Assembly: GCA_033398695.1 (NCBI GenBank)
Contig: CM065802.1
Location: 211,067,096 to 211,131,095 of the forward strand
From: Orobanche coerulescens
Lineage: Eukaryota > Streptophyta > Magnoliopsida > Lamiales > Orobanchaceae
Length of the DNA stretch: 64,000 nt
Direction of reading: 5' to 3'
Below, piece after piece: positions 6,339 to 51,586 of this stretch; position 1 is the first letter of the stretch; every line of letters begins with the position of its first letter. The notes below the pieces were generated by a model, which did no database searches, was not told where the DNA came from, and saw only the letters and a program-made list of their open reading frames with translations. A program made the position numbers and the translations under genes.

Positions 6339-6406
6339 GCCTTGTAAATCCTTATGTAAAGGATTTACGGCGCTGTAATATTCCCGAATATATTGGGGGT
6401 GTTACA
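6339..6406 (+). promoter_or_regulatory. Terminal stem-loop module of the A LTR
   Basis: AGCCTT is followed by the stem GTAAATCCTT / AAAGGATTTAC (6344-6368), then GGCGC and TGTAATATTCC, an internal echo of the LTR's own first bases, and the LTR end GTGTTACA. The same order with different but complementary stem bases occurs in B, G, H and J. It ends about 45 nt upstream of the primer site. Confidence 0.7.
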
Positions 6407-6411
6407 GAATA

Positions 6412-6425
6412 TGGTATCGGAGCTA
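6412..6425 (+). other. Primer binding site of A (initiator tRNA-Met type)
   Basis: TGGTATCGGAGC, five bases after the 5' LTR, is one mismatch from the plant initiator-tRNA-Met complement TGGTATCAGAGC. It primes minus-strand cDNA synthesis. Confidence 0.85.
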
Positions 6426-6538
6426 AGATTATGGATATCTTGGCCGTTGGGTTAAAATAGGGGTCATTTATGTCTTTTGAGGTAACCGGTCGTGAACGAC
6501 ATCACTGCACTGCCTACGTCTTCATGCGAACAGTGGTT

Positions 6539-6640
6539 GTAAGTTCCTAAACTCTATCTTGTTCTTTACATGTTGTGTCTCTTTATACTCGAATATTAGA
6601 ACGATGCTGTTTCCTGTATATTAAGTACTTGTGCTTACAG
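6539..6640 (+). other. Putative leader intron just before gag of A
   Basis: A donor GTAAGT at 6539-6544 and an acceptor GTGCTTACAG ending at 6640 bracket a T-rich 102-nt segment that ends one base before the gag ATG. The same GTAAGT in a GTGG(N)TGTAAGT context stands at the matching leader position in H (42274) and J (48630-48635, minus). Confidence 0.45.
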
Positions 6641-6641
6641 T

Positions 6642-7385
6642 ATGTTGAGAGGCGGACGTGGACGTGGTCGCGGTCATGGACGCGGACGAAGGAATGCTGA
6701 AAGGGAGGCGTCGCCTTCTAATCAGGCTAGTCATAGCTCAGGCGAGCCGCAACAATCCATCAATAACGAACCGGAACCTGGTGTACCAGAAATCCTTCGT
6801 CAAGTCGTGAACCAGATGACTCAGTTCGCTCAGGTCGTGGACCGAATGCAAGTGGCGGCAGGAATTCAGCAGGGAGATAAACAACAAAGGATTCCAGAAA
6901 TGGGAAATCGAGGTGACCGATGGTTACAAGAAGTGGCAAAGATGCAACCACCCAAATTTGACGGCTTTTCTGAGACTCCCACTTGGGACCATTGGTTGAA
7001 GGAACTAGAGAAAATTTTTGCTGGAATTAATTGCCCGGACGACAGGAGAGCTCCTATTGCCCAGTACTTTCTGATAGGGGAAGCATCCGAATGGTGGGAA
7101 GCTATCCAACCTGCAGATCATGATGCCGATTGGACGGAATTTAAAATGATGATGGAAGCTCAGTATTGCCCTCGTCCTGTGAGGGAAGCCAAAATTCGGG
7201 AATTTTTCTCCGCTCAACCATCAGACGAACCCGTATCCCAGACGATTAAGACGTTTAACCAGCAGTTAGCATTTGTTCGACATCTGGTCAGAACAGATGC
7301 GGAGATGATGATTCATTTTGAAATGAGGATGAAACCAGAAATCCAGAGGTACATGTCCGGTTTTGAATGTACCACTCTCACTTGA
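6642..7385 (+). pseudogene. gag: A gag (capsid) part, ended by an in-frame TGA
   Basis: ATG 6642 opens an Arg/Gly-rich N-terminus (GRGRGRGHGRGR) followed by the Ty3-type capsid domain, with the motifs PPKFDGFSETPTWDHWL and SEWWEAI and a helical region up to about residue 245. The capsid packages element RNA in cytoplasmic particles. The frame stops at TGA 7383-7385 but reopens at once in the same frame, so gag and pol were a single ORF. The stop is consistent with a CGA-to-TGA change at a methylated CpG, though the original codon is not known. Confidence 0.85.
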
Positions 7386-7400
7386 TACGAGGATAAGGCG

Positions 7401-9347
7401 TTGGCTTATGAAATAAAAGAAGCAGCAATGGAGAAGTTCACGGAGTCGAAGAAACAGAAAGTCTCTGGTACTTTTACAGAGCACAAGAGCAGTGGGCCCC
7501 GCAAGGCCCAGTCTTCTTTTTCTTTCAAGAAGCCTCCGCACCCATCTAAGAGCGGAAAGAATTACGGAACAATGTCAGCCACGGCGGATACAGCTAGGAA
7601 GTGCTTTAACTGTGGTCGCCCAGGCCACCTTTGGCGTGATTGTTTACGCACTCCAGTTACATGTTTTGAGTGCGGACAGGAAGGGCACCGTGCGACGTTT
7701 TGTAAGGACGCCACTAAGTACAAAGGAACCCATTCATCACAGCCAATTCAAAAGGAAGCTAGTGTCCAACAGACGCAGCAAAGTGTTCAAATGCCTCAGA
7801 ATTTTGGCCGCGGGCGAGGCAGAGGACAATGGGACCGAAAGGGGACATCGAGTGCCGGATCTGTTCCCCCACGTTTGTATGAGATGAGGAGGACAAACGA
7901 TCAGTATGTTGCTGTCGCATCAGGTACTGTCCAAATCCTTTCCCAGCCAGTTAGCGTTTTGTTCGATACAGGAGCTACACATTCTTTCATATCTTTGTCT
8001 TGTATAAATCGTTTGAATATTTCCGGTTTTCATACTTGTGAACCTTATGTTGTTGGTTTACCGAGTGGAGAGAGGATTGTCGGAAATTTAGAAACTAGAA
8101 ATTTCCCTGTATCATTTGGGGGCAGAGAGTGGCTCTCAAATCTGATCGTGATAGAAATGCAAGGAGACGACCTGATACTCGGAGACGATTGGCTTAATCG
8201 GTATGGAGCAATTGTAAACTACCGAAAGAGGAATATCTCGCTGATCGCTGACGATGGTTCCGAAATATTGTTCGAGGTGGAAACCAGAAGCTCGAGAGAA
8301 ATTGATCAACGCGATGAAAGTCACAAATTGTTGAAACAGTGTCACCGAATGCGGTGTTACGCAATGAAGAAAGAAGACGAAATTGTGGAACTTTCATCCA
8401 TTCCTGTTGTGAACGAATTTCCAGATGTATTTCCTGATGAGTTACCGGGACTACCTCCACGAAGGGATGTGGAATTTACCATTGAGCTGGAACCCGGAGC
8501 TACACCGATTTCCAAGGCGCCGTATCGTATGGCACCTACCGAGATGTACGAACTGAAGAAGCAGCTGGAGGAATTACTGGATAAAGGCTACATCCAGCCA
8601 AGCGTTTCACCCTGGGGAGCACCAGTTCTTTTTGTCCGAAAGAAGGATGGATCGCTCCGACTGTGTATTGACTATCGAGAGCTGAACAAAATGACGATTA
8701 AGAACAAATATCCGTTACCACGGATTGATGATCTATTTGACCAGCTGCAAGGGGCGACAGTATTTTCCAAAATTGATCTGAGATCAGGGTATCACCAGCT
8801 GAGGATTAAGGAGTCTGACGTTCCGAAATCAGCGTTCAGAACTCGCTACGGACATTATGAGTTTGTAGTAATGCCGTTTGGTCTCACTAACGCACCTGCT
8901 GTATTTATGCAATTGATGAACCGTGTGTTCATTGAATTTTTGGATAAATTTGTGGTCGTATTTATTGACGACATTCTGGTGTATTCTAAGAGCCCGGAGG
9001 AACATGCGCAACATTTTCGGATTGTGTTGGAACTTTTGAGAAACGAGCAATTGTACGCCAAACTTTCTAAGTGTGAATTCTGGCTAAAGGAAGTAATGTT
9101 CCTCGGCCATGTAGTGTCAGCTGAAGGAGTCCGAGTAGATCCTCAGAAGATTGAAGCAATTATGGATTGGAAGCCTCCAAAGAACGTGAAAGAAGTCCGA
9201 AGCTTCTTGGGACTTGCTGGATACTATCGTCGATTCGTGGAAGGGTTTTCTAAAATCTCCCGCCCACTTACTCGACTCCTGCAGAAAACTCAAAAGTTTG
9301 AGTGGAATGAATTGTGTCAGATTAGTTTTGATGAACTGAAGAAATGA
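7401..9347 (+). pseudogene. pol: A nucleocapsid, protease and reverse transcriptase
   Basis: Same frame as gag. Two zinc knuckles of the form CX2CX4HX4C lie at 7602 ([14 protein letters not shown]) and 7662 ([14 protein letters not shown]). The aspartic protease active site is FDTGATHSF at about 7961. RT follows from about 8400, with LPPRRDVEF, the YPLPRIDD block and the catalytic FIDDILVYS at 8961. The domain is full length and all recognised residues are intact. The frame is closed by TGA 9345-9347, in a context typical of an Arg codon mutated at CpG, and continues in the same frame. Confidence 0.9.
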
Positions 9348-10523
9348 TTAACGACGGCACCGATTCTATCACTTCCGCAGGGAACTGAAGGATTCATAGT
9401 TTACAGTGATGCTTCGAACCAAGGACTTGTGTGCGTGTTGATGCAGAATGATAAGGTGATCGCTTATGCATCGCGACAACTGAAACCTTATGAAGTGAAT
9501 TACCCAACACATGATTTAGAGCTAGCAGCAGTGGTTTTTGCCTTGAAAATCTGGAGGCACTATCTATTCGGGACTCACTGTCAAATCTTTACGGATCATA
9601 AGAGTCTCAAGTACTTATTCAGTCAGAAAGAGTTGAACATGCGGAAAAGAAGATGGTTAGAACTGATTAAGGACTATGACTTGGAGATTTTATATCATCC
9701 AGGCAAAGCGAATGTAGTGGCCGATGCACTTAGCCGCAAGCCTGTCTCTATTCAGATGCTGGAGACGCTGACCTCCCAAATTAGCCTTCAGCGAGAGATG
9801 ATTCGTGAAGGAATTGAAGTGTGGTTACAAAGAGTCCAAGGACAACTGTGCGTGATGGAGATAACTTCATCTTTAACCGAAGAAATCAAATCTAGACAGA
9901 CAGATGATCCTCTGATGATTCGGTTACGTGATGAAGTGATCAAAGGAAAGGCCCCCGGATTCATAATTCATGATGATGGGGTTTTGAGATTTCAAAACCG
10001 ACTCTGCATTCCCGATGATGATGTTCTGAAACAGACAATTATGAAGGAAGCTCACAGTTCGCCCTATTCTATCCACCCGGGCACCAGTAAGATGTATAAG
10101 GATTTGAAGCAGAATTTCTGGTGGGGCAACATGAAGAAAGACGTAGCGGACTATGTTTCGAAATGCTTGACTTGTCAACAGGTTAAGATCGAGCATCAAC
10201 GGCCTGCTGGAATGTTGAAGCCGCTCCCGATTCCTGAATGGAAGTGGGAGGACATATCGATGGACTTTATCACTAATATGCCGAAAACCAGGACACGAAT
10301 GAACATGATTTGGGTGATAGTTGATCGTTTAACCAAATCGGCTCATTTTCTAGGTATTAAGGATACGTGGGGACCAGAGAGGTTGGCACGAGTATTTATT
10401 TCGGAGATAGTTCGATTGCATGGTACACCGAAGACCATTGTTTCTGATCGAGACGGTCGTTTTGTGTCTCACTTTTGGAAAGCAGTTCATAAGGCCTTGG
10501 GGACGGAATTGAACTTGATCTGA
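9348..10523 (+). pseudogene. pol: A RNase H and integrase N-terminal and core
   Basis: The frame continues from RT. The RNase H domain shows YSDASNQG, the [10 protein letters not shown] block, [11 protein letters not shown] and VADALSRK. Integrase follows with its zinc-binding HHCC module (His residues near 10050-10080, CLTCQQ at 10164) and the first two catalytic Asp residues (DFITNMP at 10263, SDRDGRF at 10446). A frameshift near 10515-10520, inside the segment before the catalytic Glu, ends this frame at TGA 10521. Confidence 0.88.
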
Positions 10524-11302
10524 CTTATCACCCGCAGACTGACGGACAATCTGAGAGAACTATACAAACGGTGGAAGACATGCTAAGGGCCTGTGCCTTA
10601 GATTGGTCAAACGATTGGGAAATTCATCTACCGTTGATTGAATTTACCTACAACAATAGTTGGCATGCTTCCATTAAGATGGCACCGTTTGAGGCATTAT
10701 ACGGAAGGAGATGCAGATCGCCCCTATGCTGGGACGATTCATCGGACTTGATCGGAACAGAACCAGAGTTGATCGAGAAGACTCGAGAGAAGATAGCCTT
10801 GATTCGTGAAAGGCTGTTGACTGCCCAGAGTCGCCAGAAATCCTATGCGGACGTACGCCGCCGCCCATTGGAGTTGAGTACTGGAGATCACGTACTTTTG
10901 AAGGTCTCTCCTACTCGGGGAATCTTTCGTTTCGGAAGGAAAGGAAAGCTGCATCCTAGATATATCGGACCATTTTAAATCTTCGAGAGAGTTGGGGAGT
11001 TGGCATACAGATTGGCATTGCCGCCGTCATTGTGCCATGTTCATAACGTGTTCCACGTATCCCAATTACGGAGGTATATACCAGATCCCAGTCATATCAT
11101 TGATTTCGGCGAGATCGAAGTCGCGCAGGATGGGACTTTTGAAGAAAGGCCGGTCAAGATACTCGAGAGTCGAGTTAAACAGCTGAGGAACAAACCAATC
11201 GTTTTGGTCAAAGTTCAGTGGTCACGTCACGGAATGGAAGAAGCCACCTGGGAAACGGAAGCTGATATGAAGTCTAGATATCCCGAGTTATTTTCGTCTT
11301 GA
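10524..11302 (+). pseudogene. pol: A integrase C-terminal part and chromodomain-like tail
   Basis: After the frameshift the integrase core resumes with the catalytic Glu (QSERTIQT, GAG at 10553), then the C-terminal GPY/F-like domain. An in-frame TAA at 10976-10978 interrupts the GPF motif. The frame then runs to 11302 and ends in a chromodomain-like sequence (LVKVQWSRHGMEEATWE, then YPELF). Chromodomains target chromoviruses to heterochromatin, which fits their presence in this nested region. Confidence 0.85.
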
Positions 11303-11319
11303 GTTTCGGGACAAAACTC

Positions 11320-11337
11320 CTTTTTAGTAGGAGAGTA
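11320..11337 (+). other. Polypurine tract of A
   Basis: The segment TTTTTAGTAGGAGAGTA abuts the 3' LTR and is the expected primer for plus-strand synthesis. The purine run is short and is preceded by a T-rich stretch, as in many chromoviruses. Confidence 0.6.
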
Positions 11338-13691
11338 TGTAATATCCGGATTTATTACAGTGTATTCCATCTGTATTCAAACCATGTATTATACGGATTG
11401 GTGAATTTGATTATTGGAGTATGATATTTCGTGTATTGATATCATTATACATAAGTATAGAAACTTGCAAAATTGCTCAAGCAACCTCGTGATAACGCAC
11501 GCTAAGAATGTATTTTAACGCGCGCTATCGGGCCATTATTAGCGCACGCTATGAAGATAGGAGTTGCGTGCGCTAAGAACTCAATTATTGAGCGGGACGG
11601 CTAACACATGCGCCAGCCGGGACATGGGTCCGGATAAGATTCTCGGTGACGCAACCGGACAAATTCTGAAGTCAACCATTATTAGCGCACGCTAAGGGAT
11701 GCTTAGTAGCGTGCGCTAACTTGTCAATAATGCAGCATATTATAAATGGGACAGCAACCGCTTTGGCTTTCATTTCCTTCGTCTATACTTCATCCTTGAG
11801 AGTCCAGAGAGCAAGAATCTCCCTTCTAAACACTTAGAACATATATTAGTGATCATTGAATGATTGAGTATCACTTGTGAGTGATCATTGAAGAGAAGTA
11901 ACACCTTGGAGTGGCACATAACCAACCGGAGTCGGATTATACCTCGTGGTTCAGTGATTCCGGCATATTAAGGTATGTTCAACCTATCACCAGTCTTAGA
12001 TTTGGATTTCCAATGGATACGATGATCATATTAACGAGGTATTGAATTTCATTAGTGAATTATTCAACAACATCATGTTTAGAAGATTGGAATGTCTACA
12101 ATTACGATATTATTGTTGGAACCTTGAAGTTGGAATCCTAGTACTTCAAATGATGAGAGAAATATTCTGAAGTTAACAATCCGTATGATTTATGTTATCT
12201 TTGCGATCATGATTTGGAAGAGATGTTATAAGAACTTAAAGGAAGAATCATCTTAGGAAATATTCTTTCGTATAAGTCGGAATTGTTAGTTCACCTCAAG
12301 ATAAAGTCTGAATATGTATAATGATAGTAGAATCTAATACATCAACCGGAGATCACCAACTTCGCATGAGAATTGTAATCAAGATGGATTATGGCGTCAT
12401 GATGATTATACGTATAATTGCATCTTGAAGTTGACATTATCCTGGAGATCATTCATAAAGGTTATGAACATAACCTGAAGACAGATAACAAACATCAAAT
12501 CACTGAAGAATTCGCTTACTACATCACTATTTGTGTAAATCTGCCTCGGTGAATCGCCATGCACTATTAGCGTGCGGTAATATACGAGATTTAACGTGCG
12601 CTATCGAGCACGCTTTAGCGACGCAACGCTTTTGGACTTAGCGTCGTTAAATCATCGGCCGAGTCGATCGATGATCGGTGAATCGACAACACCGGGTTAG
12701 CGACGCTAGGCGGTGTATCGCTGACGCTAACGAGTAGCATTAACGTACGCTACATATGATTCGTAGCGTGCGTTAATCTGTCCAGACAGATTGCATATTA
12801 AGGACTTCCTACCGTAGTTGTTGAATTGTTAGACGTTCGTACGGCACGAAAGGAATTCTGTAATATTTCTTTTGTTAAGGTTCGAGCTTAACACGTGACT
12901 GATCGAAGGGGACGACCTTCGAGTATTTTGATATTCATGGAAGTTTATTCTTGTCAACAAACCGAGGCAAGTACTCTAATTAGAATTGTTTATATTATGA
13001 TAAGTATATTGAGATTGTATTGTGTATTATGTGTTGTGATTAAATGTCCACCATGCTTTGATCCGACGGGAATCATCATGGGAATCTATAGCTGTGTGCG
13101 CTGGATCGTTGGACAGGTAGTTCCACCATGCTTTGGTCCGACGGGATCATCATGGGAATCTATAGCTGTGTGCGCTGGATCGTTGGAATACCATCAGTAT
13201 GTTGAAACTGTTATGATATGATATGTGTTGTGGATATTCTCGTTGGAGAAACTTGTTATGATATAATTGTTGATTATATCACTGTTGTATGATTATTGTA
13301 CTTGTACTAGCATCGTTGTGCTAACCCCTTCGGGGGTGAACATTTGTGTATGTTCAGGATCTAGGAGAGCGGGAAAACAACCACTGGAGATGCATGACGA
13401 CGAGGGTGCAGAGTGATGTACCGACCGGGTTTACTGTCTGTTATTTGTTGGTTATTTTAATAAGTACTCGAGTACGAAGTCATTTGTGATGATTTGAATT
13501 TGGTGATGTATTATTGAGTTATGTTGAACAATTGTACTATTTCTGTATTGGGTCAGAACTGTTGTACCGTAATTTCGTTATTTCCATTCGTTAATACCTT
13601 TTAATGACTGTTTAAATTCTTCAGCCTTGTCAATCCTTATGTAAAGGATTTACGGCGCTGTAATATTCCCGAATATATTGGGGGTGTTACA
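11338..13691 (+). repeat. A 3' LTR
   Basis: Matches 4044-6406 nearly base for base except around 12540-12860, where substitutions and indels cluster. It keeps the TATA box, palindrome arrays, GC-AG donor (12967), minisatellite, hairpins and terminal stem-loop (one stem mismatch near 13631). It is followed directly by the target duplication CTTAT. Confidence 0.93.
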
Positions 13692-17663: not shown

Positions 17664-17702
17664 TATAACACCCCCAGAGCCATCCAGGAATATTACAGTG
17701 AC

Positions 17703-17725
17703 GTGGGCCCCGAGATGGAACCCAC
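17703..17725 (-). promoter_or_regulatory. Terminal stem-loop of B 3' LTR
   Basis: On the minus strand GTGGGTTCC pairs with GGGGCCCAC, preceded by AGCCTT and followed by TGTAATATTCC. The paired bases differ from those of A at three consecutive positions on both sides, so pairing is kept. The same structure is at 26277-26299 in the 5' LTR. Confidence 0.7.
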
Positions 17726-18569
17726 AAGGCTAAAAGAAATTTTCACAAACATTTACACACACTTAAGAGGCGAACGACGGTACTATCTTTTAAAAATATT
17801 CGAAGACTTTATAAAACTCATTTATCGAACCCGTCGTAAAATCTCATTTGAAAGGACAAGGCAAAACAGTCGGAACTCAATAGTTTAGAAAATGATATTT
17901 CAAAGTAACTTAAATTACCAGATACCAAAAGGCCATTTAACGATACTCATGCAGCGGAAAGGACAAACAATTAAAAATACTCCAGCAACGGAATACAACA
18001 AATAATCAGAATACTCGATTCACAGACACATGCCCTAGCCAGTATCCTCCAGGAAGCTCATCTCTCCACGACCGCTACAAGCTCGATATCCCAAGAACCT
18101 AAAAGGAAAGCCCACGACGGGGTCAGTCATAATATCCAATAATGATAACAATCACATCACATCAATAATTACATACCAATGAGATACTAAGTAAGAATAC
18201 TATCAAAGTAATCCTACTGCCATACTTTGCCAAATTCAGGTCTTGTACTGATTCTCTCACAATACCCAAAGTTCTCAAAACATCATCATAACTCACTGTT
18301 ACGAAATCTACTAACTCTGTCCAAATCAATCTATCGGATATCATCATCGAATCTCAACATGAAACCGATTGTCCATCAAAGACAAATACCAAGGGAAATA
18401 CGGAACATACCTCGAGATGCACAATACCACGAAAATCACGTCAGTCTAATCCGAGATCAGATCAATACATCATATGGACACGGTCTTAACACAAGAGCTA
18501 CAAATGCATACTCATATGACAACGTCAATATGCTCAAAACAATAACAATAGTGTATACTCAATGGAAAT

Positions 18570-18900
18570 CCCATGATCCAGCGCCCTCAGCATAGATCCC
18601 AAGATGATCCTACTAGATCAACACGAGGTGGATAAAAAACAATATACATATGCACAACAACACATGTAAAACCAACGACGCGAATCCACATGATTCCATC
18701 AACACAACATTGGGTAATTCAACGATCCAGCGCCCTCAACATAGATCCCCATGATGATCCCGTCGGACCAACGCATGGTGGAAAACCCGTCCAATGATCC
18801 AGCGCCCTCAGCATAGATCCCAAGATGATCCCATCGGACCAACACGAGGTGGTCATCTGATCCAGCGCCCTCAGCATAGATCACACGATCCCATCAGATC
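18570..18900 (-). repeat. Minisatellite of about 70-80 bp in B 3' LTR
   Basis: Four units containing GATCCAGCGCCCTCA and CATAGATCCC, then a variable CATGGTGG or CACGAGGTGG block. Read on the minus strand, a unit has CCACCATG, GTCCGACGGGATCATC and GCGCTGGATC, the same landmarks as the A LTR minisatellite. Confidence 0.85.
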
Positions 18901-19501
18901 AACACAACATATACAATACAATTATGCATACACATATGCAAATCAATATGTTCATCAACATGAAGAACATATGAATCAATAATACGAACGACACTATGAC
19001 AAATCACTAGGACGACCTCATGTTCAACAATATGAAAGACAATATGCATGACCAAAATCATTAACACTAAACCACAATCAATATAAAATACTTGCCCCGA
19101 GTCCTTCGGGAGCAATCTCGATGTCAAGTAATCACCAACGATTATCCTCAATGCTCGGCGACCGAACGTACCACGGACTATAGATACTCATATCCTCATC
19201 TTTATCATAATGTATCCTCGGTACCCAAATATGCCAATAATCGAAATAAATCATATACACTACGATTTAAATCCCAAAATCAGAAAACAACATATAATCA
19301 TTGCTATATGTATTATAAACGAAATGAAAGTGAAACCATTTATTAAACATTATAAACTGAGCAAGTAATAACTTGCTTCAGTACCAACACGGCAATGATC
19401 AAGCCGTTACCAATTTCTTGTCGTCGTCTACAAGTTCCTCATCTCTCGGCCAAAGTGATTCACGAACGTTCTCGGACACGACCGCAACACACTTTCTAGT
19501 C

Positions 19502-21245: not shown

Positions 21246-21333
21246 GTGAGTCCTCCAGTTTTGGAGATGTTGCTTGATAATGGCGATCGGGTTGGAAGAC
21301 TGGTGATCGTCGTTCGGTTGCCGACCGCGTTGT

Positions 21334-22576: not shown

Positions 22577-22683
22577 GATTCTGAAAGCTTTCTTTGAAGA
22601 GCAGTGAGTGTCTCTTCAAGTATATACCCCGGGGAACAGTGAGTGTTCTTCGAGACGGTAGGAATAAAAATGAGGGTTTAGAT

Positions 22684-26237: not shown

Positions 26238-26672
26238 TATAACACCCCCAGAGCCATCGAGGAATATTACAGCGTCGTGGGCCCCGAGATGGAACCCACA
26301 AGGCTAAAAGAAATTTTCGCAAATATTTACACACGCCTAAGAGGCGAACGACGGTACTATCTTTTAAAAATATTCGAAGACTTTATAAAACTCATTTATC
26401 GAACCCGTCGTAAAATCTCATTTGAAAGGACAAGGCAAAACAACCGAAACTCAGTAGTTTAGAAAATGATATTTCAAAGTAACTTAAATTACCATATACC
26501 AAAAGGCCATTTAAAGATACTCACGCAGCGGAAAGGACAAACAACTAAAAATACTCCAGCAACGGAATACAACAAATAATCAGAATACTCGATTCACAAA
26601 CACATGCCCTAGACAGTATCCTCCGGAAAGCTCATCTTTCCACGACCGCTACAAGCTCGATATCCCAAGAAC

Positions 26673-29036: not shown

Positions 29037-29075
29037 TGTAACACCCCCAAGTTATTCAGGGAATATTACAGCGCC

Positions 29076-29098
29076 GTAAGCCCCACCATGGGACTCAC
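29076..29098 (-). promoter_or_regulatory. Terminal stem-loop of G LTR
   Basis: On the minus strand GTGAGTCCC pairs with GGGGCTTAC (two G.T pairs), preceded by AGCCTT and followed by GGCGC and TGTAATATTCC. Confidence 0.68.
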
Positions 29099-29408
29099 AA
29101 GGCTAAACATACGCGGAACTATAAATTTTGACCGAGAAGGTCTACATATAATGGAATGAAGAACAATACAAAGGGTATTCAAAACATAACCAATGTACCC
29201 AAAGACATCACAACACAAATCAATACCTCGGCAAACATAGGCCGGAACATCAAGGAAAATGGAAAACAATACTCGAGTATTCAATAACCATTCCAGTACA
29301 ACAACACTGAATGGAAAACTCAAAACATAACCGGAGGAAAGACACAGTATCACACTTGCCCACCATCTTCATGCCGACCCGATACCTGCCTGTCCACTCT
29401 CCTGGAAC

Positions 29409-38905: not shown

Positions 38906-40468
38906 GTCATATCCCAAGACCCCTCTGCCGTAGCATGATATTGTCCGCTCTGGGCACTCTCCTCTTGAGCTGAACTTGTAATATCCGCAATTTTCGATTT
39001 TCGGTAAATTTCTTTTTTCGTCCGGAGTCCGTTTTGACGACTCGCTCATGACCGTTTCGTCATTTCGGGAATGATTAATTCTGCACTTTTTGTCATCCGA
39101 GTTCGTTTCGGTATCGTTTTGTTGAGTTCCGAGCTTTTTAGCGACTTTTCCGCACTTGAGTTCGATTCTTGCGAATCTAAATGCAAGCTGTTTTCGAGTT
39201 TCTCGTGAGTTCATTTAATGTTATTATTCATGTTGCGAGCTTTGGTTTGGTGTTTCGATCGCGTATCGTGATTTCCGGACGTTTTGGGCCATTTTCGTAA
39301 TTTCCCAAAGATTTGGGTAATTACTTCCGTTGTCGAATTCCGAGCCTTCGGGTGGTCAGAATTGTGTGTTCTCTTAAGTCTTAGATTCGTCTTTGCGAGT
39401 ACGTCGTAACCGTATCATCGATTCGTATTCAGGTTCGGGTTTCGGGGTCGATCGGGCCGTCGGAGTTGGCCGTGAGTCATGGCCGGCAATCGGCCCAGAG
39501 GCGCCTTGGCAGTCACGGCCGGTAGTGCTCGGCGCTACAGCCGAGTCACGGCCGGTAGTGCTCGGCGGCTTGGCGGCCGAGGCCATCGTGGGCGCGGCAC
39601 ATCTTTGGCAGCCGCGGCACACTCTGTGGCATTTTCGGCCAAACCAGTCTGGTGCCGCGGCTGCCTTGGCCGAGCAGCGGCTGCTGCCGACCACGGGAGC
39701 CATTTTTGGGCTGTGCGCGGCACACTCGTGGGCGCGGCACTGTACGGTACTTATTTATGGCCCCGCAAGCGGGTTTTTGGCCATTTTCTCCTTCTTCTCC
39801 TTCTCTTCATGGTGAGGTGATCTTACCATGGAGCCATGTTGTTTAACAACAAATCCATGAAGTTCTTGAGTTTATATCATCAATCAATCATCCGTTATAA
39901 TCCTTTGATCCAGCGAATCAAGGTAATCTTACCTTAGAACCCTAATTTCGTGAATTTGGGGTTTTTTGCGTTTTTGTCCGATTCGTTCCGTATTATTGAT
40001 TAATTCATGATGGATATGATTAATATTGGTAGTATTCTTGTGTTTAACATCATTTAATCCATTGTTTTTCGTCGAATCGAAGTATATTTCTTGATTTCCT
40101 TCAAATTGACTTTTTGGGGGATTTGTTCTCGATCTCGTTTTTCATCCATTTATGATGGATCTATTATGGTTAAATGATGTTGTTAAACATATTCTATGGA
40201 TTGTATATCCATATTTCGACTTGGAATTCCATTTTCGTGTTTTGTCGGAACGAATCGTGTTCTTGGCCGTTTTGGGGAAAACACTTGAACATTCGTCGTT
40301 CGTTCTTTGAATTCAACGGCTTTGTGTCATGCTATGGAATTCATTTTCATTGTTGTTATTGTGCTCCGTAGTTTATTATCGCGAGTTGGCGTTCGGTGGA
40401 GTCGGCGGGTTCATAGTCGGTTCGTGTCAACCTATTTCGGTCGATTCTCCGCGTTGTTCTTATTCGAG

Positions 40469-41763
40469 GCAAGTACCTTGTCCATACTATTCTTGTTTTG
40501 TGGATATGATAATTGGTGATCGTCTTGGTGTGTTTGTTTGTTTGTTTGAATCGAGTTTTCAAAAGATTTGGTTAGCCTTGTTAAAGGCCCTCTTTCAAAA
40601 CCGTATGTGTTTTGTAAATGGTGTGAGTTGTAAGTGACTACGTGAATTCTTTGGATATGTTTGGTGTTGATGTTGCGCTTGATAATGCGTGTGTGCATAT
40701 ATTATCTCATTTCGGTGCATTGTGATTTGACGATTATGTCGTGCCTTGTGTTCGTTGCCTTTGGTGGATTGTATGAATATCCTTGTTGTGACGTGTTAAT
40801 TGTGTGAATGTATTTCGCTCACCTCAGGAGAGTCCGACGGGATCACGGAGGGAGTCCAATGGTATAGCCCTGGATTCACGAGTGCGGTTGTTTATGTTTT
40901 GTGAATGTGTTTACTCACCGTGGGTTGGTTCGACGGGGCCACGACTGGAATCCAATGGTATAGCCCTGGATTCACGAGTAAAACTTCACAAGTGTGTGTG
41001 TATGTTTTTGTGAATGTGTTTACTCACCGTGGGTTGGTTCGACGGGGCCACGACGGGAATCCAATGGTATAGCCCTGGATTCACGAGTAAAACTTCACAA
41101 GTGTGTGTATGTTTTAGTGAATGTATTTTACTCACCGTGGGTTGGTTCGACGGGGCCACGACGGGAATCCAATGATATAGCCCTGGATTCACGAGTAAAA
41201 CTTCACGAGTTGGTGTATGTGATCGAAAACGCATTCTGCTCACCTTGGGAGGGTCCGACGGGGAATCCAATGGTATAGCCCTGGATTCACGAGTTGGTGT
41301 TGTATTTTTGGGGACCAAGGTTTACGTATCTTGGGCGATTATATTGTATTGATTTTATGTCCGTCGAGGGCACGTGACTTGGGTTTTGGCCCCGTGAACT
41401 GTTGTCGGTTTTCTATTTGCGAAAACAAAACCTTTGGGCTGTGACACCTGTTGATTTTGGAAAGATAAGTATTTGATAATCCTAAATTGTTTTCTATTAA
41501 AACTCTCGATGGCATTTTAAACTGTTTCATAAATTGTTTCCCTTTAATTGTGGTCTTTCGGTTTTGGAATGTTTTACTCAAATTCTTGCCTCGAAAAGTA
41601 TTCATTTCGTGGTATTTTTAATCTTTGAGGATTTCTGATTATTGTTATTCTTGGAACTTGAATTGTATGGCTCGTAGTTTTGCACTTGTATTTGCACTAG
41701 CAAAACAGTGGAGTTTTGCTAACCCCCGAGTATTCGGGGGGTGGATGTCTATTTTTGCATTCA
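40469..41763 (+). other. Putative GC-AG intron in H LTR
   Basis: The donor TTCGAG|GCAAGTACC and acceptor TTTTTGCATTCAG|G are 1295 nt apart. The first hairpin TAGCAAAAC / GTTTTGCTA (41698-41721) and the second ACCCCCGA / TCGGGGGGT (41722-41742) stand 20 nt before the acceptor. J has TAGTAAAAC / GTTTTACTA at the same place, a compensatory pair change. Confidence 0.45.
40805..41303 (+). repeat. 109-bp minisatellite in H LTR
   Basis: Five units (for example CTCACCGTGGGTTGG at about 40914, 41023, 41131), each with TTCGACGGGG, GGGAATCCAATGG and CCCTGGATTCACGAG. The copies in the 3' LTR are at 59000-59510. The landmarks parallel those of the A and B minisatellites. Confidence 0.9.
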
Positions 41764-42031
41764 GGTTTTGGAGCATAACACAGGGTCGGCACGAAGGATG
41801 ATGAAAGATGAACGATACTAATCACACGAGGATCCGTTGATGTCGTATTGGTCTAGTTGTATTTTCTTTTCCGCTGCAGTATCTTTTCCCCGTTATACGA
41901 GAGTTTATTGTATTTTGACCCCTGCGTGGGTATGTGTTTGTAATTGAGTTGTATATTTTTATTGAAAGACCAAATCGGTCTACTGAGTCATTTTAGCCTT
42001 GAAGGCATTGTCGAGATGTTAAATGTTGTTA

Positions 42032-42100
42032 CCAGCCTGGTAGATCCTCGAGGAGAGGGTCTACGGCGTGTAATATCCCTGAGTGGATTGGGCTGTTACA
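42032..42100 (+). promoter_or_regulatory. Terminal stem-loop of H LTR
   Basis: AGCCTG, stem GTAGATCCTC / GAGGGTCTAC (42040-42064), GGCG, TGTAATATCCC, LTR end GCTGTTACA. The primer site begins five bases after the LTR. Confidence 0.72.
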
Positions 42101-42121: not shown

Positions 42122-43060
42122 TTGTGGAAACCTAGGTTGTCGGGTCAGGGGTGTCTATTGAGTTTTGTCTCGTCGGATTTTGTCTGACTGAGTCGTGTCG
42201 CGACGCGTCGTCTGAGTTTGTTGGTCGTGATTAGTATCGTGGGGCGATCATCATCTTCGTGCGACCTGTGGCTGTAAGTCTCCCTTCTTCGTGTTATGCC
42301 TCGTGTGACACGAGCTATTTTTATGATTATTTGTTAATTGATGGAATCCTCTTATGGATTTTTATTTCTTGATATGTGGTTATTTGACCCTCATATTTCG
42401 TTCATATGAGGAGTAGCGTTGCTGGATTGTGCATGTTTGACTTTATTTCTTTTATCCGCTGCGTGAGTTCTTTTGTAATGGCTTTCGGTATTTTACCGAC
42501 TGAGTTTTATTTCGAAAACCGATTCCCTTAACCGAGTTTGTGGCATTATGGCCTTGATCGTTTTGGCGAAATTCTTATGACGGTATTTAGTATTTTCTAA
42601 ATGGCTTTTGTAAGTTTTTGAAATATTACCGTCATCAGCCTTTTTGGCGTTTTTGTAAATGGTTTTTAGCCTAGTGGGTTCTGGCGTGGGGCCCACGGCG
42701 TTATAACATTCCATGTAATTACCTGAAATTTTTGGGTATTCTAGCCCATTGAATTATCTTTAAAAACCTTGAGTATCTTAGAAAAATAACTTTCGAGACG
42801 TACTTTTAAAATGAATTATTTTCTCGTGGTACATACAAGGTGCCACAACATGTTTCAAAATTCTTCTACCTCGAGGACCAAAATGCTTTGAGATATTTTC
42901 AATGTTTTAGAAACACTTTTACTTAGACCCGAGGGTCGAATATTTTTGAAAGTTTTTCACTAAGAGAAAGTGTCCTCATTTTTATCAAATGCGAAATGGT
43001 TTTCAAAAGTCTCGATAACGATGTTTCACGTTTGTACTTCTTTTTTTTAAAGGTGATACT
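42122..43060 (+). other. H internal region, left part, noncoding
   Basis: Contains the leader donor GTAAGT (42274-42279) in a context shared with A and J. At 42668-42715 it holds an additional copy of the terminal stem-loop module (AGCCTA, GTGGGTTCT / GGGGCCCAC, GGCG, TTATAACATTCC) outside any LTR. No coding frame is visible. The inverted counterpart in J is at 47600-48260. Confidence 0.7.
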
Positions 43061-43410
43061 TGTAACACCCCCAAAACTATATGGAAATATTACACGCCGT
43101 AGACCCTTTCCACAAGGATCTACCAGGCTAAACATCCATAAACAACCAAATGCTTGCCCAGCCAGGGTCAAACAATAAAATGATACAGATCAATATGGTC
43201 ACTTACACGTGAATACACAGACCGATGAGGTCACACAACCCAATTGATAAAACTGACTTAAATAACATTACCCACACAGGGGTCGAAATACAATACAGCG
43301 GAAGACTGAAATCAACTCTGACAACACAACAAAAATCAAAACAACTCTCGACTCATGATTAGTATCGCAGCTCGTCATCCTCTTGTGCCAATCTGTGTTG
43401 CTCCCCGAAT

Positions 43411-44612
43411 CTGCATGTACACGACGCAAAGCAGGACATCCACCCCCCGATTACTCGGGGGTTAGTAAAACTCAACTGTTTTACTAGTGCAAGTATCAAA
43501 TCATACGAAATGCAACAAGCAAATAATAATCGTGAATCCAATATAATAATCAAGTATCCAAATATTCCCGGGAGGTTTTCACAAGGGAAGATAATCTATG
43601 AAGCATTCGAAAATAAGATTATCATCTCGGGAATTTTTTTTTAGATTTTCAAAACCTTTAAGACCTCAAGTCCTGATTCACAAAACCTTTCGAAAAACTT
43701 TAGGGCCTTAACCCGATTCTCGTTTCAAAGCACACTAGATAATATATCATTATGAGTCTGAGACCCATATTTAAAATGTTACCCAAATAATCACTGCTAC
43801 ACGATCATTGTTCATACACATCATGTACCGAACTCCAGAGGCCTCGACGGACCTTACCCGGACCACACACACTGTTCGTACACATCATGTACCGAACTCC
43901 AGAGGCCTCAACGGACCCTACCCGGCCACAAACATCGTTCGTACACATCATGTACCGAACTCCAGAGGTCTCGTCAGACCCTACCTGGATCACACACCTT
44001 GTTCGTACACATCATGTACCGAACTCCAGAGGCCTCGTCAGACCCTACCTGGATTACACACCTTGTTCGTACACATCATGTACCGAACTCCAGAGGCCTC
44101 GTCAGACCCTACATGGATTACACACCTTGTTCGTACACATTATGTACCGAACTCCATAGGCCTCGTCAGACCCTACCTGGAACACACACACATCGACACG
44201 ACACAACTCATAATCATCAAATATCAAGCCATTCCACATTACATACAACAATGAGCACAATTAATCAATCACATTGATCGCCACAAAATCGCACATCCCA
44301 CGCACATAACACAATCTCAACACTCGCAACAACTATCGTCAATCAACGACACATAACCAGCATAACACACGTTCGGTACACAATACATTGCACAACCGAG
44401 TGTACAACCATCCCATATGTACGTCGCAATCCTGCACAAATGGCACAACGCCTAACACGTATACTAATATAACATTATTATCACAAAGCCTTCAAATTAC
44501 GGAAAACACAACCAACTCAAACGGAACATAATTACGAAGGCAAGCAAAATCATCATACATATCATACGTAATTACTAGTCGCAAGATACAAGTCGTATAA
44601 TAAGATACTTGC
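43411..44612 (-). other. Putative GC-AG intron in J LTR
   Basis: On the minus strand the donor at 44612 is AAG|GCAAGTATC and the best acceptor is GTACATGCAG|A at 43411. It holds the minisatellite and the two hairpins. The acceptor is weaker than in A, G and H. Confidence 0.35.
43811..44190 (-). repeat. 63-bp minisatellite in J 3' LTR
   Basis: Six units of GTTCGTACACATCATG, ACCGAACTCCAGAGGCC and a variable TACCTGGA block, with 62-63 bp periodicity. Near-identical units in the other LTR are at 49579-49955. The three copies carrying TCGTCAGACCCTACCTGG are the most homogenised. Confidence 0.9.
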
Positions 44613-45807
44613 CTTAATAACCGCTACCAAACGCTCCGAAGAACACGGTTCGACTGGGAAGCTCGGACCCCGAAGAAGACAACGAACGGAAGGGTTCCGA
44701 CTCGAGTTCTTCACAAGAATTCGACCCTAACAACATATAATCAATAAATCATCGATCATACGAGGAAGAATAATGGTAGAACGCTCGAATTCTCTTTGTG
44801 ACATTTTATCGAACACCTTCAAGGCGTCGATAAAATACTCAATAAAACGACAAATCCGTGGCAATCCAACCGTGGAATAACAAGGAATTAGATATAATAT
44901 AGCTTAACAATCATCAATCCATCAATATTCTGAGTTAAAACGGATTAAATGGACAAATCGAACAAAATTCCCAAAACTATATTTTAAGAAAACTTGCCTT
45001 GATTCGGTCGATCGGAGCAAGTTATGGAAGGATTAATCGATGTAATGAACTTCAAAACTTCATGGATTTAACCCCTAACAACATCCCTCCATGATCTTCA
45101 AAGCTCCAGCCGCGGAAGAGGAAGAAACGAGTGAGAAAAATGAAGAAAAACCCGACTGCTCTGCCATATTAATAGCCCTGCCGGACACGGCGCAACAAAC
45201 GGCCCAGATCAGCGTCGGGTGTCTCGTCCGTGTCTCGGCAGGCTGCTGGTCCTGGCCGACCCGGCGCAAGACACGGCAAGGCGGTGCGTTTCGGGGCCGT
45301 TCGCATGGTCCGGCCGGAGACTCGGTCGTTGACGGTCCGAAAAATCCGAAACTCGGACTAACGTAAACCGAAAGCACGGTTACGAAGTACTCGTAAAGAC
45401 GAATCCGAACACCGAGAGAACACATGATTCCGACCACCGAAGGCTCGAAATTCGACAACGGAAAGTAATTACCCCAAACTTTGGGAAATTACGAAAATGG
45501 CCCAAAGCGTCAGAAAATCACGATCGTGATCGAATAACCAAACCGAAGTTCACAACACGTCTAAAAAGTTAAGCGGACTTACGGGAAACTCAAAGCGATA
45601 ATTTGACGAGATTCACAAGAATCGAACTCGAGTGCGGAAAAGTCGTTAAGAAACACGGAACTCAACAAAACAATACCGAAACGAACTCGGATGACAAAAA
45701 TACGAGAATTAATCATTCTCGGAATGATGAGACGGTCCCAAGCGAGTCGTCGAAGCGGACTTCCGAAAAAATAAAATTACCGAGAAATCCGAATTGCGGA
45801 TATTACA

Positions 45808-48800
45808 TTCTACCCTCCTTAAAAGAAGTTTCGTCCAAACTTAAATCAAGTAGGGAGAAGCAATATCCCGCCAGGAAAACTCAACGAGATACACAAGAAC
45901 CGAAAAAAATTCGTGCCCAACGGCGAAACGTTACAAGCAACGCAAGGGAATATACGGCGTAAAAACACGCCCCACGACGACTAACGCAACGCCACCGACT
46001 ATGTTTCAAACAACAACGAGCAATTAACGACGCATCACATACCACATCACATGCACACATTTAATCGAAGAAACGTACGCTACAACAAGTTGCACCCGAC
46101 TAAAACGGCTATGCGATAGAAACAAATAGAGTATCACGATAGAAATCATTCCGATTCTCATCAATAAGAAAATGTCACGTCAAAACACAAACAATTCAAG
46201 ATAACGGAAAACGAGAATACGGACATTACATTCTATCCTATTTAAAAATAAGTTTCGTCTCGAAACTTAAAATAAAACATCATGGTAGAATACAAACAAA
46301 ACCAAAAGTCCACGCAACAAATATCAATTTCTACGAATTACTGACATGAAGTACGATACACAACTACATCACGGGACACCACCGGGCACTCCCGAGTAGG
46401 AGCGAAAACCCGATTCCGAACATCTTGGCACGGTCTCACCATGCACCGCTCGGTGACCCACTTAGCCACACTCGAAACGATTGACTAACGGTGAACGACA
46501 ATTCTTAGCGATGCGAGATCGAGCAACAACGGTCGGACAACCCGTTCGAACAACAACGATCGAACAACAACGATCAAATAACAATGATCGAACAACAATG
46601 ATCAAATAACAATGATCGAATGACAACGATCGAACAATGACTCAAGTCCCCACTTCAACTCCGGACATTAAAAGAAGCGGTAGAAAGTGAAAGATGTTAC
46701 TTCCAAACAAGGTTCACAAGAATCGAACCGAACTCGGAAAGGTCACGATGACAAACAGTCGATCTAAAACAAGGTCACAACCGATTCGAATGATGACAAT
46801 CGAGACATCAAACAAGTTCAAAAGTATCGGCGAACATGTGCAAGTCGATAGAATTTAGAAGGAGAAACTACGAAGTCAAATATAGTACGAGTATTACATC
46901 CGGCCTCTTATAAAAGAAATGTCGTCGCAACTCACAACAACGGAAACAAGGTAACAACACAAAAAGCATCCGACAGAAAATCTCCCATGGGTCTCTCGAG
47001 TCGATCACGATATACGTCTTTGACGCGAACTCCGAAAGTCTCGGTAGCCATTCGCAAAAGCGAATTGGTGTCCTCGAAGCGCGTCAGCGAGAAGGACAAT
47101 TTACGTGCATGCCCGGCACATCACGGTTGAAATACCTCGGCTCGGCATACGAAAATACAAATGCTAGATACAATGGGGCATAAAGTCGCAAAACAATATA
47201 GCGGAGATGCCAACTCGGCACAACCAAGAATCACGGCGGTATCGTTCGGCGACCTCAACGGCCCGAACGATAACCAAGACCTAATTACAAACATTATGAA
47301 ACAATCACACATGTACACAAGCGTACAAACCCAAGCTTCAACGGCTCACACTCGTGCGACAACACGCAAATCACCACGAGGCGATAAACAGTAAACACCG
47401 GTTCACACCTCTCACAGAGGGCTAGTACAACAAATGCGTGGCAACGCCTCGACGTTCATGCCACCAATTCGATCATACTCGGGAGCAAACATCATAACGA
47501 CAACGCGAACATCATACATACATACCCAGCCCTCAAACGGGAATGGATAGGTTTTAAAACGAAAACCTCCTTTTGAAAATAATTTTGGAAACACCGATTG
47601 ATCTTGAGTATCACCCTTCAATAAAAATACAATCGTGAAACATCGTTATCGAGACTTTGGAAACTATTTCGCATTCGATAAAAATGAGGACAATTTCTTT
47701 TCGTGAAAAACTTTTGGAAGTATTCGACCCTCGGGTCTAAGTAAAAGTGTTTCTAAAACATTGGAAAATATCTCAAAACATTTTGGTCCTCGAGGTAGAA
47801 GAATCTTGAAACATATTGTGGCACCTTGGATGTACCACAAGAAAATAATTCATTTTAAAAGGACGTCTCGAAATTTATTTTCTAAGGTACTCAAAGTTTT
47901 CAAAGATAATTCAATGGGCTAGAATGCCCAAAAATTTCAGATAATTACACGGAACATTATAGCGCCGTGGGTCCCGCGCCGGAACCCACCAGGCTAAAAA
48001 CCATTTACAGAACGCCAAATAGGTCGATGACGGTAATATTTTACAATGTCCGAAGTATTTCAAAACACATTTTTCAAATACCGTCTGATTGTGTCATTTG
48101 AAAATACACGGCCCATTTGTCAAAATTTAACAAATTTTAAAAATCCATATAAACCATGGTTTGACCGCACCACCAAAATATTTTCCAAAAATCGATTTCT
48201 ACAAAATTCTCAAACTGTAAAGTCCTTCAGGAAACATTCTCAAACTTACCCATAGCGGACAAAAATTACAACATTCCAAAAACAGTCGAATTTAAAACCA
48301 TATACTCAAATGGAAACCAGGGTCGCCAATTCAATCAATGCATCTCGTGGTATCAAGTTTAAACACACAACAAAATCATTCATCGGAGTTTCTCACAAAC
48401 TCTACCGTCGGTACCTATTCGAAACCCATCAAGGTTTAAAACTTTCACAACCTACCACCCCACCCGGTGGTTCAAAGATAAAACAATAACGTGCCCAGTT
48501 CTATACACATACTATGTGTCACAAGTATTAAACACAACTATATTACACAATCTGTAAATAAAATTATGCACCGCAATTAACTCACTAAGATAAAATCGAG
48601 ATACACAGGTATTACGCATAAAGGAGGAGACTTACATCCACAGGTCGCACGGAGGTGACGGTCGCCCACGATACTAATCTCGTCCGACAACATATCCGAC
48701 ACGTTGTGACTACGCACAACTCAACTTGTCACCTGACGACTCGAACGACAAGACAACACATTACTCGACAAACCACGACTCGACTCGACCCGACAGCCTA

Positions 48801-48832
48801 GGTTTCCGCAACCTAAGCTCCGATACCATAAA
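45808..48832 (-). other. J internal region, noncoding
   Basis: 3.0 kb with no gag or pol similarity. Minus-strand primer site (TGGTATCGGAGCTTAGG) at 48811-48828; PPT-like TTTTAAGGAGGGTAGAA at 45808-45824; leader donor GTAAGT at 48630-48635; stem-loop copy at 47967-47989 (GTGGGTTCC / GGGACCCAC); and a short repeat of CGAACAACAATGATCAAA type at 46549-46640. Conservation with H despite lack of coding suggests that the noncoding sequence itself is what is propagated. Confidence 0.7.
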
Positions 48833-51586
48833 TGTAACACCCCCAAAACCATATGGGAATATTACACGCCGTAGACCCTTTCCACAAGGATCTACCAGGC
48901 TAAACATCCATAAACAACCAAATGCTTGCTCAGCCAGGCTCAAACAATAAAATGATGCAGATCGATATGGTCACTTACACGTGAATACACAGACCGATGA
49001 GGTCACACAACCCAATCGATAAAACTGACTTAAATAACATTACCCACACAGGGGTCGAAATACAATCTGACGGAAGACCAAATCAACTCTGACAACACAA
49101 CAAAAATCAAAACAACTCTCGACTCATGATTAGTATCGCAGCTCGTCATCCTCTTGTGCCAATCCTGTGACTGCTCCCCTGAATCTGCATGTACCTGGAC
49201 GCAAAACAGACATCCACCCCCCGATTACTCGGGGGTTAGTAAAACTCAACTATTTTACTAGTGCAAGTATCAAATCATACGAAATGTAACAAGCAAATAA
49301 TAATCGTGAATCCAATATAATAATCAAGTATCAAAATATTCCCGGGAGGTTTTCACAAGGGAAGATAAGCTATGAAGCATTCGAAAATAAGATTATCATC
49401 TCGGGAATTTTTTTAGATTTTCAAAACCTTTAAGACCTCAAGTCCTGATTCACAAAACCTTTCGAAAAACTTTAGGGCCTTAATCCGATTCTCGTTTCAA
49501 AGCACACTAGATAATATATCATTATGAGTCTGAGACCCATATTTAAAATGTTACCCAAATAATCACTGCTACACGATCATTTTTCGTACACATCATGTAC
49601 CGAACTCCAGAGGCCTCGACGGACCTTACCCGGACCACACCCACTGTTCGTACACATCCTGTACCGAACTCCGGAGGCCTCAACGGACCCTACCCGGCCA
49701 CAAACATCGTTCGTACACATCATGTAACGAACTCCAGAGGTCTCGTCAGACCCTACCTGGATCACACACCTTGTTCGTACACATCATGTACCGAACTCCA
49801 GAGGCCTCGTCAGACCCTACCTGGATTACACACCTTGTTCGTACACATCATGTACCGAACTCCAGAGGCCTCGTCAGACCCTACCTGGATTACACACCTT
49901 GTTCGTACACATCATGTACCGAACTCCAGAGGCCTCGTCAGACCCTACCTGGAACACACACACATCGACACGACACAACTCATAATCATCAAATATCAAG
50001 CCATTCCACATTACATACAACAATGAGCACAATTAATCAATCACATTGATCGCCTCAAAATCGCACATAACACAATCTCAACACTCGCAACAACTATCGT
50101 CAATCAACGACACATAACCAGCATAACACACGTTCGGTACACAATACATTGCACAACCGAGTGTACAACCATCCCATATGTACGTCGCAATCCTGCACAT
50201 ATGGCACAACGCCTAACACGTATACTAATATAACATTATTATCACAAAGCCTTCAAATTACGGAAAACACAACCAACTCAAACGGAACATAATTACGAAG
50301 ACAAGCAAAATCATCATACATATCATACGTAATTACTAGTCGCAAGATACAAGTCGTACAATAAGATACTTGCCTTAATAACCGCTACCAAACGCTCCGA
50401 AGAACACGGTTCGACCGGGAAGCTCGGACCCCGAAGAAGACAACGAACGGAAGGGTTCCGACTCTAGTTCTTCACAAAAATTCGACCCTAACAACATATA
50501 ATCAATAAATCATCGATCATACGAGGAAGAATAATGGTAGAACGCTCGAATTCTCTTTGTGACATTTTATCGAACACCTTCAAGGCGTCGATAAAATACT
50601 CAATAAAACGACAAATCCGTGGCAATCCAACCGTGTAATAACAAGGAATTAGATATAATATAGCTTAACAATCATCAATCCATCAATATTCTGAGTTAAA
50701 ACGGATTAAACGGACAAATCGAACAAAATCCCCAAAACTATATTTTAAGAAAACTTGCCTTGATTCGGTCGATCGGAGCAAGTTATGGAAGGATTAATCG
50801 ATGTAATGAACTTCAAAACTTCATGGATTTAACCACTAACAACATCCCTCCATGATCTTCAAAGCTCCAGCCGCGGAAGAGGAAGAAACGAGTGAGAAAA
50901 ATGAAGAAAAACCCATCGCTCTGCCATATTTATAGCCTGCCGGACACGGCGCAAAGCAGCCCAGATCAGCGCGCCGGGTGTCTCGGCCGTGTCTCGGCAG
51001 GCTGCTGGTCCTGGCCGACCCGGCGCAAGACACGGTCTTTGGCGGCGCCGTTTCAGGCCGTTTCGCACAGGTCCGGCCAGCCAGGACTCGGTCGTTCCGA
51101 CGGTCCGAAAAATCCCGAAACTCAGACCTGAACGTAAACCGAAAGCACGGTTACGAAGTACTCATAAATACGAATCCGAACACTGAGAGAACACATGATT
51201 CCGACCACCCGAAGGCTCGAAATTCGACAACGGAAAGTAATTACCCCAAACTTTGGGAAATTACGAAAATGGCCCAAAACGTCCGAAAATCACGATACGT
51301 GATCGAATAACCAAACCGAAGTTCACAACACGTCTAACAAAGTTAAACGGACTTATGGGAAACTCGAAACAGTAATTTCGAATGAGATTCACAAGAATCG
51401 AACTCGAGTGCGGAAAAGTCGTTAAGAAACACGGAACTCAACAAAACAATACCGAAACGAACTCGGATGACAAAAAATGCAGAATTAATCATTCTCATAA
51501 TGATGAGACGGTCCCAAGAGAGTCGTCGAAACGGATTTCCGCCGAAAAAATAAAATTACCGGAAATCCGAAATTGCAGATATTACA
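48833..51586 (-). repeat. J 5' LTR
   Basis: 2754 bp, nearly identical to 43061-45807. Stem-loop 48871-48895. TATA box GCTATAAATATGG on the minus strand at about 50922-50934; this copy has the better TATA box of the two. Differences to the other LTR concentrate around 49080-49210 and in the GC-rich part at 50930-51125. Confidence 0.9.
49579..49955 (-). repeat. 63-bp minisatellite in J 5' LTR
   Basis: Six units matching those at 43811-44190. Confidence 0.9.

Follow-up and report, generated by a model that had tools for sequence, protein, structure and literature searches.

A covarying RNA hairpin upstream of the initiator-Met primer site in divergent long terminal repeat retrotransposons of Orobanche coerulescens

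Why would several retrotransposon families keep a stem at the same place near the end of their long terminal repeats (LTRs) while the sequence of that stem changes? The question is raised by a 64 kb window (the whole stretch of DNA analysed here, from contig CM065802.1 of the 3.65 Gb Orobanche coerulescens assembly), which is a nest of LTR elements, and in which a sequence-only reading had noticed a stem with compensatory base changes in five families, here A, B, G, H and J, and had proposed selection on an RNA or cruciform structure. We find that this hairpin, hereafter SL1, is well supported as a selected RNA hairpin of the sense strand. We further propose, with a probability of about one half, that it may act in cis in the initiation of reverse transcription, much like the U5 inverted repeat (U5-IR) of retroviruses, in plant Ty3 elements that are probably of the chromovirus type.

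The stems that had been located in A, B, G, H and J are all present, and folding together with RNAalifold reveals that the anchors used to align them pair themselves, GCC with GGC, leaving two bulged bases on the 5' side. The SL1 frame consists of AGCC, the two bulged bases, a stem of 8-10 bp and free sequence, a loop of 5-7 nt and GGC. In the 5' LTR of A (frame 6338..6371, stem 6344-6368, plus strand) it comprises AGCC-UU, a 10 bp stem, a 5 nt loop and GGC; in the 3' LTR (frame 13623..13656, stem 13629-13653, plus strand) one pair is broken. Both LTRs of B have a 9 bp stem on the minus strand, above a lower stem that has decayed to GAC in the 5' LTR (frame 26274..26305, stem 26299-26277) and to GTC in the 3' LTR (frame 17700..17731, stem 17725-17703). 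The stem is also 9 bp long in the solo LTR G (frame 29073..29104, stem 29098-29076, minus strand), and reaches 10 bp in the 5' LTR of H (frame 42034..42067, stem 42040-42064, plus strand) and in both LTRs of J (5' LTR, frame 48868..48901, stem 48895-48871; 3' LTR, frame 43096..43129, stem 43123-43099; minus strand). That every LTR of this group has the stem is therefore true of all eight identified 3' ends, but not to the letter, given the broken pair in the A 3' LTR. Loops differ between families; because nine- and ten-pair stems alike close on 5 nt, the extra pair represents a simultaneous change on both arms.

A sixth family, L, carries a different stem in the same frame (see below), and two more frames lie inside elements: KH within H (frame 42668..42699, stem 42674-42696, plus strand) and KJ within J (frame 47964..47995, stem 47989-47967, minus strand), the latter in a block about 90% identical to its counterpart in H. 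KH aligns with the LTR end of B over 98 bp and is probably a relic of a B-like LTR end; we thus regard KH and KJ as remnants that do not speak for a second function. A search of both strands of the window for the frame irrespective of stem sequence (GCC followed after 1-3 nt by a stem of 7 bp or longer that closes a 3-8 nt loop, then GGC) returned nine sites, namely seven LTR ends and the two internal copies, where 20 Markov-simulated windows had 0 or 1 site each (mean 0.25). It missed the A 3' end because of its broken pair and the two ends of B because their GGC has decayed. A covariance model built from eight stems gave 12 matches at E up to 10, which are the 12 known sites of the window, the eight training sequences matching by construction.

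Within the window, pairing is maintained while the paired bases change. Ten sequences were compared, eight from LTR ends and two from KH and KJ; of their 95 pair cells 94 are canonical, the broken one being that of the A 3' LTR, and five of the ten pairs have changed on both sides; the pair changes noted earlier at positions 3-5 and 10 read exactly as described. The covariation score was reached by none of 500 column shuffles and the number of doubly changed pairs by 13 of 500, while sliding the partner by one to three columns lowers pairing to 34-54%. With L included, eight stems hold 97 paired cells out of 99 and 9 doubly changed pairs out of 13, and no shuffle (0/500) matched either figure. 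Simulations in which the arms of the seven window stems evolve independently, run on five assumed trees, gave P values of 0.0005-0.004. Folded in contexts of 371-413 nt, SL1 has a pair probability of 0.97-0.998 in five families. The sense strand folds at lower energy than the antisense strand at all eight LTR ends, with a lower z-score at seven of them. Together with the excess of G.U over A.C cells reported next, this indicates that selection bears on the transcript strand, and the asymmetry disfavours the cruciform that had been offered as an alternative.

Beyond the window, the motif TGTAATATYCC occurs 132,479 times in the genome, against 1,969 for the reversed pattern. We took 88 of the first 100 listed places, all on one contig and chosen irrespective of hairpins (8 loci and 80 stretches), which yielded 87 unique sites. 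A stem of at least 8 bp lies within 45 nt before the motif at 64 of these sites on the sense strand, compared with 5 on the antisense strand and 4 in an upstream control window. The core could be parsed at 79 sites, the failures being three places unlike LTR ends (L042, L058 and L094) and five decayed or shifted LTR ends. The 49 distinct cores have 446 of 476 cells canonical, counting the unpaired cells added by one core (L061) that is misplaced owing to extra bases in its stem; pairs broken as often as kept, the outcome that had been named as refuting selection, were not seen in these cores. At pair 6, T stands opposite T at nine of the 79 sites (GTAGATCC...GGTTCTAC type) and C opposite T at one, while A stands opposite T (GTAGAACC...GGTTCTAC) at two places, L020 and one match of the longer pattern described below. 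We read this series as compensation that passes through a broken pair, in an order that we infer.

That longer pattern, AGCCT...GGC...primer site, is found at 66,214 places in the genome and its reversed version at one. From 100 listed places, 69 distinct strings chosen by eye gave 68 distinct cores; we used 64 and set aside four that were 21-22 nt long. Their 576 cells divide into 457 Watson-Crick, 101 G.U, 7 A.C and 11 others, making 558 canonical. Mutual information peaks at the true partner for 7 of the 9 3' columns (pair 8 counting trivially, its 3' letter being invariant) and for 5 of the 9 5' rows, and the series T-A, T.G, C-G at pair 2 and C-G, T.G, T-A at pair 7 are present. Reduced to 43 distinct arm pairs, the set keeps 369 canonical pairs out of 387, a value that none of 5000 independent-arm simulations reached from either of two roots (neighbour-joining tree built from the stems themselves, change count per position kept, 63 of the 64 cores, the arms of the omitted one being already included), and G.U outnumbers A.C by 66 to 7; the samples come from the first megabases of one contig. 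Pattern scans of viral contigs gave seven chance matches in one and none in the other, a reverse transcriptase (RT) search there found no relative, and a scan of genome contigs found none.

The hairpin had been said to sit just 5' of an initiator-Met primer site, and this position is conserved. The primer binding site (PBS) of A lies at 6412..6423 on the plus strand (TGGTATCGGAGC), with others at 26232 (minus), 42105 (plus), 48828 (minus) and 54666 (plus); we take their primer to be the initiator-Met tRNA. The SL1 stem ends 43 nt before the PBS in A, 44 in B, 40 in H, 42 in J and 43 in L, a range of 40-44 nt, and from this position we assume that SL1 lies in U5. Many double changes, abundant G.U with few A.C, sense-strand stems and this conserved spacing jointly bear out the earlier claim of selection on RNA structure. 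Two other hairpins are predicted nearby. SL2 is formed in A by the last 33 nt of the LTR (6374..6406, plus strand), which fold into a 12 bp stem with G.U pairs, as they do in B, G and J and, with one mismatch, in H (spanning the last 32-34 nt of the LTR); its 12 pairs at 81 genomic LTR ends include 236 G.U versus 8 A.C cells. SL3 starts in the last two bases of the PBS (6422..6444 in A, plus strand; likewise in B, H and J). When H and J are compared in windows of 25 columns, the block from SL1 to SL3 is 68-92% identical, against 40-64% upstream (76% in one window) and 44-84% downstream.

Does the hairpin extend to a more distant element? L (53533-57667, LTRs 53533-54662 and 56565-57667) is nested in the 3' LTR of H, has LTR ends of another type (TGTCACGG...CCGTGACA), and carries a different stem, ACTTAGCT/AGCTAAGT, within the same AGCC-UG...GGC frame and at the same distance from the primer site. 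It has 8 bp and a 7 nt loop in the 5' LTR (frame 54594..54625, stem 54600-54622, plus strand) and recurs in the 3' LTR (frame 57599..57630, stem 57605-57627, plus strand). The stem was spotted by eye before the frame search was written; in shuffles of the last 150 nt of the L LTR the frame appeared in 0 of 20,000, and some 8-bp hairpin in 290 of 4000. The gag of L is 26% identical to that of A over 92 aa, and its best named protein matches are from Lactuca and Taraxacum. Two proteins found with L, P0121 (71% identical to L) and P0131 (40%), are respectively 40% identical to A over 321 aa and 46% over 503 aa; from these identities two lineages are involved, if L counts.

What could such a hairpin do? 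Priming, dimerisation, packaging and 3'-end formation had been put forward earlier as plausible roles. The spacing to the primer site, the presumed place in the leader and the retention of SL1 in B, H and J argue for a signal that works in cis in the RNA. We hypothesize that SL1 is a cis-acting hairpin in the U5/leader of element transcripts, on the sense strand, which would form alongside SL2 at the LTR end and SL3 just past the primer site, and would shape the RNA around the initiator-Met primer site in a way that positions the tRNA and allows minus-strand synthesis to begin efficiently. Recognition would be by shape (the paired GCC/GGC base, the two-base bulge and the free stem) and likely not by stem sequence.

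Several points weigh against this proposal. The predicted fold, the covariation, the strand, the spacing and the retention at many places of the genome are observed; from them we infer the presence of SL1 in the transcript, at its 5' end, the use of the hairpin by proteins or tRNA, and initiation of reverse transcription as the step concerned. Conservation alone cannot separate priming from packaging. In predicted folds the primer site itself is partly paired (mean unpaired 0.23-0.51), and SL3 covaries weakly: its four sequences show two double changes, a level equalled by 34 of 500 shuffles. In H, the sense z-score is no better than the antisense one, and the T.T mismatch at pair 6, which occurs in a multicopy group, implies that one broken pair is tolerated and that full pairing is not strictly needed. 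As for L, a covariance model of the other families does not find it at E up to 10 and, when filters are off, ranks it top of a 4 kb stretch, yet weakly (8.7 bits, E 0.4); neither SL2 nor SL3 is clearly present in it.

More tentatively, SL1 could be a shape-read RNA tag used across divergent plant Ty3 lineages. Its parts would be the fixed GCC/GGC base, the two-base bulge, the fixed distance to the primer site and the free stem; the machinery of autonomous elements would read it in trans, and non-autonomous elements would keep it for mobilisation.

Somewhat less probable is a packaging or dimerisation signal, in which Gag would bind SL1 with SL2 and SL3 to select or pair RNA for particles, non-autonomous elements keeping SL1 for packaging in trans. 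Retention fits such a role: SL1 is kept in B, H and J, in whose interiors 10 open reading frames (ORFs) tested of 31 listed hold no retrotransposon domain (two weak, unrelated matches fell below cut-off), and in L, whose ORF (54644-56620) encodes gag and protease domains only. In Ty1, packaging sequences are described within the first 580 nt of the RNA (PMC4974528). Palindromes that might serve dimerisation occupy the stem tip in H (10 nt) and G (6 nt) and the arm and loop in L (6 nt). However, the palindrome of B is in the arm and SL1 of A or J contains none of at least 6 nt. The families thus do not share a palindromic tip for dimers, and their varied loops make it unlikely that SL1 has a fixed loop motif or forms loop-loop dimers in general. 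The present data do not separate packaging or dimerisation from the priming role that we favour.

We consider it unlikely that SL1 is an R-region or 3'-end hairpin, the RNA starting at or near AGCC or being cleaved nearby and SL1 acting like the TAR or poly(A) hairpin of retroviruses. In most families a T-rich stretch does run up to YAGCC, TGTAA at the LTR end is presumably a plant poly(A) upstream motif, and the bulge above a short lower stem has what we take to be the shape of TAR. Yet B alone has TATAWA or CTATAA in the 900 nt up to the LTR end: both its LTRs carry TATAAA 82 nt upstream of AGCC, which is too far for a start at AGCC and, if used, would place the transcript start upstream of SL1. 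AATAAA is likewise absent from the last 900 nt of the eight LTRs scanned.

An origin without structural selection, in which arm-to-arm template switching or context-dependent mutation repairs the palindrome, seems highly improbable. Template switching is described as able to create and keep perfect stems (PMC8794818), and all changes among the seven window stems other than L are transitions. But such repair acts on DNA and has no preference for G.U over A.C, the stems are mostly lost on the antisense strand, and in L the frame, at its usual place, encloses a stem of unrelated sequence. Least probable of all is a DNA-level palindrome, whether a cruciform or a dimeric transcription-factor site such as that of TCP: the form GGNCCCAC, which we assume for TCP sites, is fitted by GGGGCCCAC in B and KH and by GGGACCCAC in KJ, but five families (A, H, J, G and L) are off-motif, the stem is strand-asymmetric, and pairing is conserved while sequence is not. 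A hammerhead or retrozyme LTR element is disfavoured too, as Rfam gave no match at gathering score in the window, hammerhead ribozyme included.

The elements that carry the hairpin are nested in one another. A (4044-13691, plus strand, target duplication CTTAT) encodes gag, protease, RT, RNase H and integrase in the order of Ty3 chromoviruses; its integrase has a zinc-binding domain and a C-terminal SH3-like domain, and its chromodomain match is borderline (24.5 bits, just under the curated cut-off of 25.1). It is inserted into a tandem array (3561-4146) with a unit of about 50 bp. B has LTRs at 17664-25157 and 26238-33565 (minus strand), G is a solo LTR at 29037-31050 (minus strand), and J (43061-51586, minus strand) is inserted in H, whose 5' LTR spans 38977-42100 (plus strand) and whose 3' LTR end was not found at its expected place. 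LTR termini of the type TGTAATA...TGTTAYA are common to A, B, G, H and J. The flanks of L, CCAGA and CCAGG, look like a target duplication with one change. Further tandem arrays lie inside LTRs, at 43736-44253 and 49508-50025 (unit about 64 bp) and at 40807-41329 and 59005-59537 (unit about 108 bp).

Blocks 42621-43060 of H and 47607-48041 of J are 90% identical and appear to hold the relic of a B-like LTR 3' end, which makes the H and J elements mosaics. Their leaders both keep GTAAGT (42274, plus strand, and about 48635, minus strand; 173 and 197 from the first internal base in H and J, respectively), which could be a 5' splice site, and TTTTTAG precedes the internal SL1 copy; we considered that this leader might contain an intron. 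The interior of J has two further modules resembling a polypurine tract plus LTR start, at 46230 and 46898 on the minus strand (TGTAATGTCCG and TGTAATACTCG), which suggest older LTR fragments. J is predicted to form a short hairpin just ahead of the polypurine tract of its 3' LTR, a prediction that extends to a module inside J and, in part, to H; L has one with a different stem, and in A and B the arms are present and the predicted fold differs (positions about 45825-45842, minus strand, 46249-46269, 52960-53008 and 56495-56564). At 63640 (plus strand), an initiator-Met type primer site follows a different LTR end with arms GGGATTCGG and CCGAATCCC about 50 nt apart; this element, possibly Copia-type, shows neither the SL1 frame nor any 8 bp hairpin over its last 150 nt. 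An LTR element at 19502-20446 and 22704-23652, which seems to lie on the minus strand and to have a different primer site, lacks the hairpin and serves as a negative control.

In some plant genomes LTR retrotransposons are reported to account for up to 90% of the DNA (PMC12786077), and the literature searched says little about their cis signals: among the matches listed, none described a hairpin conserved upstream of the PBS in Ty3 elements of plants, in a search that reached few subscription papers, and a 2016 review states that even the RNA structure of yeast Ty3 remains uncharacterised (PMC4974528). A hairpin that is recognisable by its shape, spacing and covariation and recurs at some 66,000 places in a single genome is a concrete target for probing, and it could help to locate where LTRs end and where primer sites lie in new genomes. 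How elements such as B, H and J, with no retrotransposon domain in the interior ORFs tested, still get copied also becomes testable.

Hairpins near primer sites are an already known kind of structure. In Ty1, a structured 5' RNA domain with a pseudoknot and kissing loops is described as having roles in packaging and reverse transcription (PMC5454406, PMC4974528). SL1 resembles it in belonging to a structured RNA domain near an initiator-Met primer site; unlike it, SL1 is found in elements that are not of the Copia type to which Ty1 belongs, its structure is another one, and loop-loop complementarity is not established for it. In Tf1, a U5-IR-like RNA structure was reportedly found by Lin and Levin in 1998 to be needed for reverse transcription. 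This fission yeast Ty3-type element is described as priming from its own RNA (PMC4600332), whereas the elements studied here have an initiator-Met type primer site. The order of SL1 and SL2 before the primer site, on the other hand, is like that of HIV-type genomes, in which the bulged TAR hairpin is followed by a second, poly(A) hairpin upstream of the primer site, a likeness for which we claim no homology. The likeness of SL1 to the U5-IR of retroviruses is in part a matter of general background. Specifically, the U5-IR of an avian retrovirus, Rous sarcoma virus, is described as a stem that lies within U5, not far from the tRNA primer site (PMC3601003). SL1 differs from it in lying 40-44 nt upstream of the PBS, with SL2 in between in A, B, H and J, in being free in sequence, and in being known from sequence alone; like the U5-IR, its stem stands near the tRNA primer site, and it does so in five families.

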